Of a DNA stretch of 64,000 nucleotides, positions 23,076 to 26,535 are shown piece by piece. The position numbers and the translations under genes are program-made. The stretch's first letter is position 1, and each line of letters starts with the position of its first letter. Where the stretch lies: assembly GCF_001839655.2 (NCBI RefSeq), contig NZ_CP056087.1, forward strand, positions 248,001 through 312,000. Reading direction: 5' to 3'. The notes beneath the pieces were generated by a model. It made no database searches. It saw only the letters and a program-made list of their open reading frames with translations, and was not told the origin of the DNA. The DNA is from Pseudomonas argentinensis. GTDB taxonomy: Bacteria > Pseudomonadota > Gammaproteobacteria > Pseudomonadales > Pseudomonadaceae.

Positions 23076-24287
23076 ATGGAATTGATCGAAAAGCTCACGG
23101 TACTCGCCGACGCCGCCAAATACGATGTTTCCTGCGCCAGCAGTGGCGCGCCCAAACGCAGCTCGAAAGGCCAGAGCGGCATGGGCGCCACCGACGGCAT
23201 GGGCATCTGCCACAGTTTCACACCGGACGGGCGCTGTGTCGCCCTGCTGAAGATCCTGCTGACCAATTTCTGCCTGTACGATTGCCAGTACTGCGTCAAC
23301 CGCCGCTCCAGCGACGTGCCCCGCGCACGCTTCACACCCGAGGAAGTGGTCACCCTGACCCTGGATTTCTACCGCCGCAACTGCATCAGCGGGCTGTTTC
23401 TCAGCTCCGGCATCATTCGCTCGGCCGACTACACCATGGAGCAGCTCAACCGGGTTGCCAAGCTGCTGCGCGAAGAGCACGAGTTTCGCGGCTACATCCA
23501 CCTCAAGACCATTCCCGATGCCTCCCCTGAGCTGATCGCCGAGGCGGGCCGCTACGCCGATCGCCTCAGCGTCAACATCGAGCTGCCCACCGAAACCAGC
23601 CTGATCCGCCTGGCACCGGAAAAGAGCGTGGCGCCGATCAAGCAGGCCATGGGCACCATTCGCAATGGCGTCGAGGAGGCCGACAGCGAGAAACGCGCGC
23701 CGGCCTTCGCACCGGCCGGGCAGAGCACGCAGATGATCGTCGGCGCCGATGCCACCGACGACAGCACCATCCTGCACACCGCCCAGTCGCTGTATGGCGA
23801 TTTTCGCCTCAAGCGTGTCTATTACTCGGCCTTCAGCCCGATTCCGCAGAGCCCCAAGAGCGTGCCCTTCGAGGCGCCGCCGCTGCTGCGCGAACACCGC
23901 CTGTACCAGGCGGACTTCCTGATGCGCGGCTACGGCTTCAAGGCCACCGAGCTGCTCGACGGCCCCGGCAACCTGGCCCTGGATATCGACCCCAAGCTGG
24001 CCTGGGCGCTGAACAATCGCCAGCACTTTCCCGTCGACCTCAACCGCGCCGACGTGACCCTGATCGCCCGCATCCCCGGCATCGGCGTGCTCAGCGCCCA
24101 GCGCCTGGTCGCCCTGCGCCGGCAGAAACGCATCCGCTTCGCGGACGTCGGCCGCCTGCGTTGCGTGCTGGAAAAGGCCAAGCCGTTCATCGTCACCCAG
24201 GATTATCGCCCGGCTCAGGCGACCCGTGAATCCCTGGTGCTGCGTCAGCAATTGAGCGAAGCGCCGCAGCAGATGGGGCTGTGGTGA
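23076..24287 (+). CDS. Radical SAM protein, putative DNA modification/repair
   Basis: This 403-residue radical SAM enzyme belongs to the family described as a putative DNA modification/repair radical SAM protein, usually next to a DUF4130 or uracil-DNA-glycosylase-type partner. The [4Fe-4S] cluster cysteines are in CLYDCQYC (CxxxCxxC), near residue 67. A C-terminal helix-hairpin-helix (IARIPGIGVLSAQRLVALRR) suggests DNA binding. It starts 17 bp after a LexA box and its stop overlaps the start of the DUF4130 gene, so the pair forms an SOS-type operon. The substrate is unknown; repair of a DNA lesion is an inference. Confidence 0.85.
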   Translation: MELIEKLTVLADAAKYDVSCASSGAPKRSSKGQSGMGATDGMGICHSFTPDGRCVALLKILLTNFCLYDCQYCVNRRSSDVPRARFTPEEVVTLTLDFYRRNCISGLFLSSGIIRSADYTMEQLNRVAKLLREEHEFRGYIHLKTIPDASPELIAEAGRYADRLSVNIELPTETSLIRLAPEKSVAPIKQAMGTIRNGVEEADSEKRAPAFAPAGQSTQMIVGADATDDSTILHTAQSLYGDFRLKRVYYSAFSPIPQSPKSVPFEAPPLLREHRLYQADFLMRGYGFKATELLDGPGNLALDIDPKLAWALNNRQHFPVDLNRADVTLIARIPGIGVLSAQRLVALRRQKRIRFADVGRLRCVLEKAKPFIVTQDYRPAQATRESLVLRQQLSEAPQQMGLW

Positions 24288-25144
24288 TGCATTCGGTGTG
24301 TTTCGACGGCAGCTTCGCTGGCTGGCGAGACGCGGCCAGAACGCAGCTGCGCCGCGGCATGGCCCCGCATCAACTGAGCTGGGTGCAGGACAGCCAGGAA
24401 AATCACGACCTGTTCGGCCAGCTGGACGAGCCGCAACCGGCCGTGGCGGCTGATCGCCCGGTGCGCGTACCGCGCGCCTTGATCGATCAGCTGGAAAGCG
24501 CCGCACGCTTTCGCTGCGCCCAGCGCTGGGCGCTGCTGTACCGCATCCTCTGGCGCGTCGCCAACGGCGACCAGGCCGCCATGCTGGCGGGTGATATCGA
24601 TGGCAGCGAACTGCACGCCCGCCTCAAGGCGGTCCGTCGCGAGGCGCACCACCTGCACGCCTTCCTGCGCTTCAAGCCGCGGGACGCCAGCGCCGGCGGG
24701 CCGGAACTGGTGGCCTGGCACGAACCGGCCCACGACATCCTCGCCAGCGCCTCGGGGCACTTCGCCGAGCGCCTTGGCCGGCAAACCTGGTTGATCGCCA
24801 CGCCGGACGACGGTGTGTACTGGGATGGCGAGAAGCTGCACCACGCCGACCCCTGCCCACCGCAATGGCAGCAACTGGCCCAGGGTACCGATGACCGCAA
24901 CGAAGCGATGTGGCTGGCCTACTATGGCAGCACCTTCAACCCGGCCCGGCTCAATCGCAGCGTGCTGGAAACCAATATGCCGGTGCGCTTCTGGCGCAAC
25001 CTGCCCGAAGGCCCGCTGATTCCCCGCCTGATGAGCCAGGCTCGCGCCGGCGCCCAGGCTGACGGCCAGGCCCAGGCAGTCGCCGCCCAGCCGGGAAAAC
25101 GTATCCATGCAGATGCGGAGAAAGTGCTGCCTATACGGCAGTGA
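24287..25144 (+). CDS. DUF4130 domain protein partnered with radical SAM enzyme
   Basis: This 285-residue protein is the usual partner of the preceding radical SAM enzyme (the SAM-linked DUF4130 family). In other bacteria the same domain is fused to a uracil-DNA glycosylase domain; that domain is absent here. Conserved-looking blocks include HHLHAFLRFKPRD, ASGHFAERLGRQTWLIATPDDGVYWDG and MPVRFWRNLPEGPLIPRLM. The ATG at 24287 shares its A with the TGA of the upstream gene. The final residues VLPIRQ and the stop are encoded within the first CRISPR-like repeat, so the natural C-terminus may have been altered. Confidence 0.82.
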   Translation: MHSVCFDGSFAGWRDAARTQLRRGMAPHQLSWVQDSQENHDLFGQLDEPQPAVAADRPVRVPRALIDQLESAARFRCAQRWALLYRILWRVANGDQAAMLAGDIDGSELHARLKAVRREAHHLHAFLRFKPRDASAGGPELVAWHEPAHDILASASGHFAERLGRQTWLIATPDDGVYWDGEKLHHADPCPPQWQQLAQGTDDRNEAMWLAYYGSTFNPARLNRSVLETNMPVRFWRNLPEGPLIPRLMSQARAGAQADGQAQAVAAQPGKRIHADAEKVLPIRQ

Positions 25145-25330
25145 ACATTGGCCAGCCAGCACAGCTCTGCCTTGTTCTTTTCTTATCTGCCTACGCGGCA
25201 GTGAACGTGGTGCTGATCGTGCTCGAGCAGGTGCACCATTTCTAAGCTGCCGTGTAGGCAGCTCAGAAACCGTACCCTGTAAGCGGTGAGCAGAAGCCGG
25301 CATTTTACTGCCGCATAGGCAGCCCCGAGT
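25119..25330. CRISPR. Degenerate type I-F-like CRISPR mini-array (4 repeats, 3 spacers), no cas genes
   Basis: Four 15-nt palindromic cores typical of type I-F repeats lie at 25127 (CTGCCTATACGGCAG), 25187 (CTGCCTACGCGGCAG), 25247 (CTGCCGTGTAGGCAG) and 25308 (CTGCCGCATAGGCAG). Spacing is 60, 60 and 61 nt, as expected for 28-nt repeats plus 32-nt spacers. The second copy (25179-25206) matches the recalled I-F repeat at 26 of 28 positions in minus orientation. The first keeps the GTGAAC end. The third and fourth cores read in plus orientation, and the third has an AGAAA-type handle on both sides. Spacers are 25147-25178 and 25207-25238 (32 nt each) and about 25270-25302. No cas gene is in the window. 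Confidence 0.62.
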
Positions 25331-25331
25331 G

Positions 25332-25360
25332 ACCAACGAAAAACCCGCCGAAGCGGGTTT
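25332..25360 (-). terminator. Intrinsic terminator downstream of pilU
   Basis: The inverted repeat AAACCCGC/GCGGGTTT with loop CGAA (25341-25360) reads on the minus strand as a stem followed by five T residues. It is 30 bp past the pilU stop and separates pilU from the CRISPR-like array. Confidence 0.75.
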
Positions 25361-25389
25361 CGTTCTGTACGAGCCAAGCAGCCCAGCGA

Positions 25390-26535
25390 TCAGCGGAAGC
25401 GCCGCCCCTGATCCTCGTCGCTGATTTCCAAAGACAGCCCCTGGGAAACGCTGGTCAGGTGCTCGCCGTCGGTTTCCGAGCCGAGCTTGATCATCAGGCG
25501 CAGGTCGTTTGCCGAGTCGGCGTACAGCAGGGCGTCTTCGTAGGTGATCTCGCCCTGGCTGTAGAGGTTGTAGAGCGCCTGGTCGAAGGTCTGCATGCCG
25601 TGTTCGGTGGAGCGTTTCATCAGCGCCTTGAGTTCGTGCACCTCGCCCTTGCGGATCAGGTCAGCCGCCAGCGGGGTGTTGATCAGTACCTCGATCACCG
25701 CGCGGCGGCCCTTGCCGTCGGGCGTGGGGATCAGCTGCTGGGCGACGATGGCCTTGAGGTTCAGGGACAGGTCCATCCACACCTGGTTCTGCCGGTCCGC
25801 CGGGAAGAAGTTGATGATCCGGTCCAGCGCCTGGTTGGCGTTGTTGGCGTGCAGGGTGGCCAGGCACAGGTGGCCGGTCTCGGCGAAGGCTACGGCGTGG
25901 TCCATGGTCTCGCGGGTCCGCACCTCACCGATGAGGATCACGTCCGGCGCCTGGCGCAGGGTGTTCTTCAGCGCGACTTCGAAGGAGTCGGTGTCGATAC
26001 CCACTTCGCGCTGGGTGACGATGCAGTTCTGGTGCTGGTGGATATACTCGATCGGGTCTTCGATGGAAATGATATGGCCGCTGCTGTTCTTGTTGCGGTA
26101 GCCGATCATCGCCGCCAGGGAAGTGGACTTGCCGGTACCGGTGGCGCCGACGAACAGCACCAGGCCGCGCTTGGTCAGCGCCAGCTTCTTGAGGATCTCC
26201 GGCAGTTTGAGGTCGTCCAGCGTCGGGATGTTGGTCTCGATACGGCGCAGCACCATGCCGGCCAGGTTGCGCTGGTAGAAGGCACTGACCCGGAAGCGAC
26301 CAATGCCACGGGCGCTGATCGCGAAGTTGCACTCATGGTTTTCGGCGAAATCCCGGCGCTGCTGCTCGTTCATCACCCCGTGCACGGTTTCACGGGTCAT
26401 TTCCGGCGACAGCGGGGTCTTGGTCACCGGCATGATCTTGCCGTTGACCTTCATCGACGGCGGCACGCCAGCGGTGATGAACAGATCGGAGCCGCCCTTC
26501 TCGACCATCAGGCGCAACAGTTTTTCGAATTCCAT
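25390..26535 (-). CDS. pilU: Type IV pilus retraction ATPase PilU
   Basis: This PilT-like hexameric ATPase of 381 residues assists PilT in pilus retraction and works at the cytoplasmic base of the pilus machine. Walker A GATGTGKSTSLAAMIG, Asp box HIISIEDPIEYIH, Walker B VILIGEVRTRETM and His box GHLCLATLHANNA are visible. It lies downstream of pilT on the same strand, separated by 209 bp that contain a structured repeat element, with an intrinsic terminator after it. Confidence 0.96.
   Translation of the reverse strand: MEFEKLLRLMVEKGGSDLFITAGVPPSMKVNGKIMPVTKTPLSPEMTRETVHGVMNEQQRRDFAENHECNFAISARGIGRFRVSAFYQRNLAGMVLRRIETNIPTLDDLKLPEILKKLALTKRGLVLFVGATGTGKSTSLAAMIGYRNKNSSGHIISIEDPIEYIHQHQNCIVTQREVGIDTDSFEVALKNTLRQAPDVILIGEVRTRETMDHAVAFAETGHLCLATLHANNANQALDRIINFFPADRQNQVWMDLSLNLKAIVAQQLIPTPDGKGRRAVIEVLINTPLAADLIRKGEVHELKALMKRSTEHGMQTFDQALYNLYSQGEITYEDALLYADSANDLRLMIKLGSETDGEHLTSVSQGLSLEISDEDQGRRFR

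Follow-up and report, generated by a model that had tools for sequence, protein, structure and literature searches.

A mirror-image type I-F repeat as the probable scar of a lost CRISPR-Cas locus in Pseudomonas

Introduction

What does a handful of type I-F-like repeats signify when no cas gene stands beside it? Such a locus occurs in a stretch of 64,000 nucleotides of Pseudomonas argentinensis (contig NZ_CP056087.1, positions 248,001 to 312,000), hereafter called the window, between a DUF4130 gene and a gene which, following the initial annotation of this DNA, we take to be pilU. The annotation described an orphan, degenerate type I-F mini-array and offered three origins for it: a decayed array, a cas-less array served in trans, or a site seeded by off-target integration. 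Loss of CRISPR immunity is mostly inferred from absence. In Pectobacterium, according to one report, toxic self-targeting selects for cas mutations and genome deletions (PMC3630108).

Results

Repeat cores and layout of the locus

A pattern scan of the 64-kb window found exact repeat cores starting at 25127, 25187, 25247 and 25308, spaced 60, 60 and 61 nt, precisely as initially annotated. At zero mismatch these four matches stood against none in 100 dinucleotide-preserving shuffles, which rules out chance hairpins as their source; with up to three mismatches the window had 13 matches against a chance mean of 12.2, which is no excess. The Rfam family CRISPR-DR4 (RF01317) matched positions 25179-25206 on the minus strand with 36.2 bits (gathering score 35), and was the sole Rfam match above the gathering threshold across the window. 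In the genome, scanned as one contig of 5,076,637 bases (5.08 Mb), CTGCC-N5-GGCAG was present at 41 places and the I-F loop form CTGCCG-NN-TAGGCAG at only these four, so a common genome-wide palindrome, the alternative that the annotation had itself raised, was rejected. Palindromic cores between convergent genes would also suit an intergenic hairpin repeat unrelated to CRISPR, but the Rfam match, the 60-nt phase, the single genome location and, as described below, a phage-matching spacer and a piece of cas3f in a sister genome reduce that reading to a practically negligible one.

The second copy (R2) scored 26/28 against the I-F repeat, the same value as in the initial annotation (Table 1). 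The orientation of the copies and the mirror symmetry of the third had escaped that annotation. R1 and R2 read leftward, as minus-strand repeats, and R4 reads rightward on the plus strand, whereas the third copy, P, has the 3' half of the repeat on either side and is thus a mirror-image repeat. The remaining order is R1-S1-R2-S2 (minus), P, S3-R4 (plus), in which two divergent arrays meet at P. The locus shares with I-F arrays the 28-nt repeat of the family and a period of about 60 nt with 32-nt spacers. It differs from them in that its repeats are not near-identical and in one orientation (R1 and R2 minus, P symmetric, R4 plus, no two alike) and in that no leader lies beside a first repeat, only 32 and 33 nt flanking P. 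The left arm of P (CTTAGAAA) differs from the end of R2 (ATAAGAAA). Folding of the region as RNA gave nested R1-R4 and R2-P duplexes (z -5.15), which result from the inverted layout of the repeats.

Table 1 Features of the locus (positions in the window). Scores out of 28 are similarities to the best of six I-F consensus repeats
Feature	Position	Strand	Evidence
DUF4130 gene, 287 aa, last codons and stop forming the R1 core	24281..25144	+	PF13566; C-terminus VLPIRQ (VLPVRQ in array-less relatives)
R1, leftward end repeat sharing bases with the end of the DUF4130 gene; last eight nt (3') unlike the repeat	25119..25146	-	22/28; same gene end in relatives without array
Spacer S1, 32 nt, no protospacer found	25147..25178	-	Position between R1 and R2
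R2, best-preserved I-F repeat	25179..25206	-	26/28; RF01317
Spacer S2, 32 nt, no protospacer found	25207..25238	-	Position between R2 and P
P, mirror-image repeat built of two 3' halves; proposed to be where two arrays join	25239..25269	.	Symmetric arms; 24/28
Spacer S3, 33 nt, protospacer in temperate phage contig	25270..25302	+	27/27 leading nt, 28/33, CC flank
R4, rightward end repeat, degenerate 3' end	25303..25330	+	21/28; counterpart in sister genome G393
Presumed pilU, right-hand neighbour	25390..26535	-	PF00437

Absence of cas genes and spacer targets

The annotation had seen neither a cas gene nor a leader. Profile searches of the whole genome with two families, Cas1 (PF01867) and Csy3 (TIGR02566), gave no match to either, and the locus has no room for a leader; on both grounds it is most likely an inert orphan. 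No sigma-70-like site was found in 25050-25420.

Among the three spacers, S3 had a target beside CC. It matched a contig of IMG/VR with CC directly 5' of the protospacer, whereas five shuffles of S3 reached 18-19 of 33 positions in the same piece of the contig. CC on that side of the protospacer is the PAM of type I-F systems, and the match is consistent with the right side of the locus reading on the plus strand. The target lies inside a small gene near a phage integrase, the contig being that of a temperate phage, and the encoded protein is 100% identical (95% covered) to a protein of Pseudomonas argentinensis, a species among the close relatives retrieved by the DUF4130 gene. The spacer search proposed in the annotation thus succeeded for S3 in the viral contigs, S3 having no match in the phage collection; S1 and S2 had no convincing protospacer in phages, plasmids or viral contigs. 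The best for these two, a match of S2 to a plasmid record (a transporter gene on a Neorhizobium replicon; 24-25 nt at 96%, E 0.02), was not counted.

The good preservation of R2 and the phage target of S3 with its CC flank are what might be expected if the array still worked, with a cas locus at another place or on a plasmid serving it in trans. The genome, however, has neither Csy3 nor Cas1, and the array has neither a leader nor a sigma-70-like site, so this second of the annotated options finds no support in this genome and is very improbable.

The DUF4130-pilU site in related genomes

Seven named relatives have the same 287-aa DUF4130 protein. Five of them (L031-L035) have no array before pilU and two have P, namely Pseudomonas sp. 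PA15 (L036, apparently the same assembly as G397) and Pseudomonas flavescens (L037). The DUF4130 gene retrieved 246 loci, of which 80 were kept, and among these a scan showed I-F repeats in the same two. In P. flavescens two leftward repeats, P and six rightward repeats follow each other, the left repeats being of the GTTAA and the right of the CTTCA type, and each arm of P follows its own side: CTAAGAAA equals the inner left repeat and CTCAGAAA five of the six right repeats.

The closest genome found, G393 (PilU 381/381, DUF4130 97%), has in order the DUF4130 gene end, three leftward repeats, a 3' piece of cas3f, hipA, P and R4. The cas3f piece (68% over 117 aa, E 1e-41) scored above the cut-off of PF21802 and had no NCBIfam match; its match to the cas3f of G054 begins 3 nt past the last repeat. 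Because of this piece we think that an I-F operon once stood between DUF4130 and pilU, a position where none of the genomes examined has an intact I-F locus. By itself hipA does not place an operon: a gene 81% identical to it sits between cas3f and csy1 in G013, yet its closest counterpart (92% over 333 aa, cut by the end of the stretch) lies past the right-hand array of G113, outside the operon. The spacers at the site differ among the window, G393 and P. flavescens, so the sister-strain comparison showed array-like variation, not a conserved sequence. Together with the Rfam match, the 60-nt period, the phage-matching spacer and the absence of Cas1 and Csy3, this bears out the annotation of the locus as an orphan, degenerate array of type I-F.

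Genes resembling hipA (HipA_C, Couple_hipA) were also seen at L123 1168-2448 (G013), L114 10860-11777 and 19002-20000 (G113) and L137 9496-10782 (G393), as well as in L115, L116 and L122. The one between cas3f and csy1 in G113 is more distant and on the opposite strand, another lying just past the right array, and similar hipA matches occur in the cas3f-csy1 interval of G270, G078 and G177. Possibly they represent a toxin-type kinase linked to I-F loci.

The core of R1 codes for the C-terminus of the DUF4130 protein, with the variant given in Table 1 in all five array-less relatives. The 3' end of the gene (window 25119-25146) reads as the 5' half and core of an I-F repeat, also in L031-L035. 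An incoming locus may have recombined with a gene end that already resembled a repeat; alternatively, the gene end may derive from an older array.

The third annotated option was that off-target integration by Cas1-Cas2/3 at this repeat-like gene end seeded an array which later decayed. R1 being a gene end also in the array-less relatives is in its favour, as is the distance to the next repeat, 60 nt in the window, G393 and G397 and 58 nt in P. flavescens. Since a repeat is duplicated in full at every integration, yet R2 does not have the last eight bases of R1, straight seeding fits poorly; the cas3f piece in G393 also argues against it, and P and the rightward half would be left unexplained. 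We regard such seeding as quite unlikely.

Of the annotated options the decayed array is favoured, not as one array but as two divergent ones joined after the loss of what lay between them. We consider it probable that a type I-F CRISPR-Cas locus was lost here and that the repeats in the window are its scar, in which two outward-pointing arrays were fused core to core. The two arrays would have flanked a cas operon between DUF4130 and pilU, both pointing away from it, and a deletion with one end in a core of the left array and the other in a core of the right array would have taken out both leaders and the operon. The cores share the CTGCC/GGCAG stem in either orientation, and a join between two of them would have brought two 3' halves together in a single mirror-image repeat, P. 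From co-oriented arrays, such as those of E. coli strain 503025, the same loss would leave an ordinary repeat. That the junction in the window formed core to core we infer, as we do the number of steps and the route of recombination.

Mirror-image repeats in the genus Pseudomonas

Of 398 genus genomes, 9 contained the pattern TTTCTNAG-CTGCC-N5-GGCAG-CTNAGAAA with at most one mismatch; the same pattern read backwards, as a control, gave no match in any row of the scan. The opposite symmetry, with two 5' halves, was absent from 396 genus genomes, the pattern covering the GTTCA type only and not CTTCA or GTTAA on both arms. At the class level, where genomes were taken irrespective of their I-F content, P was present in 1 of 367, the window's own. 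IMG/VR contained no exact match to P, so P as a phage-borne element is unsupported.

With P. flavescens, found via its DUF4130 gene, the nine genomes make ten P loci. At seven of these (the window, P. flavescens, G130, G009, G346, G257 and G332) outward repeats lie 60-61 nt off on both sides, agreeing at 17-20 of 20 positions, whereas 2000 null draws from the flanks of one genome never exceeded 14; in G346 the right-hand repeat is degenerate and was overlooked by a stricter flank scan. Only one side of P bears an outward repeat in G393 and G397. In G356 (L128 1448-1523) the only clear neighbour of P points inward (19/20) and the other side reaches just the null maximum, which the fusion of two arrays does not explain. 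The P of G393 cannot be a plain array-to-array join, since cas3f and hipA lie to its left; an extra step is needed.

The arms of P pair 3-4 nt beyond the repeat in G393 (to 18 nt from the centre) and in G397 (to 19), and for this reason hairpin-templated correction is suggested in these two, added to the fusion or replacing it. More generally, P might have been made within one array by hairpin-templated repair, the polymerase copying one arm from the other and so making a mirror image of an ordinary repeat, with the inverted neighbours due to other rearrangements; the locus would still be a decayed I-F remnant. The extended pairing and the one-sided repeats of G393 and G397 are in keeping with such an origin. 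It does not explain the in-phase outward arrays on both sides of seven of the ten P loci, nor the non-identical arms in the window and P. flavescens, where in the latter each matches the repeat type of its own side, and it would be expected to give the opposite symmetry too, which the 396 genomes do not have. As the source of P in the window it appears unlikely.

Relation to complete type I-F loci

Csy3 was found in none of the nine P genomes and in 14 of 396 genus genomes, none of which carries P. As Csy3 is rare in the genus, its absence from nine genomes is alone weak evidence for loss, and synteny provides stronger evidence. Between its phn-type ABC transporter genes and queA, G190 has first a leftward array (22 repeats), then csy4-csy3-csy2-csy1-cas3f-cas1f and finally a rightward array (26 repeats); its cas genes were named through their homologues in G127, themselves named by NCBIfam. 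In G346 all that lies between the same flanking genes is P, with a degenerate leftward repeat on one side and a rightward repeat on the other; QueA is 97% and the PhnE-type permease 91% identical between the two genomes, a tRNA-Leu lies beside queA, and the genes opposite queA encode the phnE-type permease, a phosphonate/selenate-type binding protein and an ATPase. The phnE-queA site thus holds a complete outward I-F locus in G190 and only the scar in G346. In G257 P lies beside the same transporter genes and in G130 beside queA, while G009 and G332 share other neighbours; P is found at more than one site, sites being counted here and not independent events.

Of the 14 Csy3 genomes, judged from the stretches retrieved, two (G190 and G127) had plain outward arrays, four (G113, G270, G078 and G177) co-oriented arrays, five (G293, G361, G013, G054 and G250) one array within the stretch, and three (G018, G370 and G319) a mixed layout. 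According to PMC12814883, the two arrays beside an I-F cas locus can each face either way, independently of one another. Divergent array pairs about 500-650 nt apart were seen beside cas1 in G370 (L145 666-1803) and G018 (L143 15560-17414), with cas genes present; at these pairs P could form without loss of the cas genes. In G078 two I-F repeat-like hairpins lie 55 nt apart between cas3f and csy1 (L116 10834 and 10889), absent from the other loci scanned; they may be a small mini-array that regulates cas genes. The idea that P is a regular feature of the cas3f-csy1 interval is unsupported, as none of 13 complete loci scanned (G319 left out) had a symmetric one there.

The spacers of eight P loci, 47 of 48 intervals with G393 left out and including S1-S3 of the window, were compared with 16 I-F loci. 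None matched their cas genes, S1-S3 had no match in these loci at all, and an anti-cas function of the array was therefore dismissed; one P. flavescens spacer had a 17-nt match in an I-F locus, outside the cas genes located there.

Discussion

The fusion of two outward arrays draws on several observations that differ in kind. The frequency of P against its reversed control, the missing opposite symmetry and the outward repeats on both sides of most P loci agree with it, and the arm types of P. flavescens, the pair G190/G346, the cas3f piece of G393 and the CC flank of the S3 target likewise count in its favour. The same applies to E. coli, in which one I-F locus examined (strain 503025) has co-oriented arrays and a P-like 31-mer (one query variant) had no place covering 80% of it in 5,426 genomes, among the matches listed. 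Against it stand, besides G393, the inward neighbour in G356, the mismatch between the arm of P and the end of R2 in the window, the plain outward layout in only 2 of the 14 Csy3 genomes and the lack of an intact locus between DUF4130 and pilU.

Whether this describes a general route is a more tentative matter. I-F loss in Pseudomonas may be recurrent and defined by sequence, outward arrays fusing core to core and shedding the cas operon and both leaders, with P marking each loss; we hold this possible, with the balance of opinion somewhat against it. If it were so, scars (9/398) would be nearly as common as intact systems (14/396), and past immunity, its place and some phage memories could be read from genomes that now look CRISPR-free. 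P would then be a positive mark of loss, searchable in any genome. P is readily explained by a join of two opposed arrays and was found in the genus nearly as often as Csy3, and the remnant in the window keeps at least one phage-matching spacer in a genome without Csy3 or Cas1.

Orphan I-F remnants are already known. For the symmetric scar repeat no account was found in the open-licence literature, which is no proof of novelty. According to PMC8616872, E. coli has lost I-F cas genes with a small array left behind, as in CRISPR4, and the spacers of these orphans mostly match I-F cas genes. The window resembles them in having a short array with the I-F cas genes gone, but differs in the P-like 31-mer, absent from E. 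coli among the matches listed, and in that the 47 spacers of P loci had no match in the cas genes of the 16 I-F loci. With the complete outward loci of G190 and G127 it shares the repeat family and the outward orientation, the G190 locus occupying the site where G346 has the scar; unlike the window, these loci have a cas operon, intact repeats and no P. In Legionella pneumophila, as described in PMC7056967, collapsed I-F arrays bear recombination scars, and there too recombination between repeats removes the intervening DNA and can leave a readable scar. The Legionella join lies within one co-oriented array, whereas here it would have been made between two opposed arrays, giving a mirror-image repeat.
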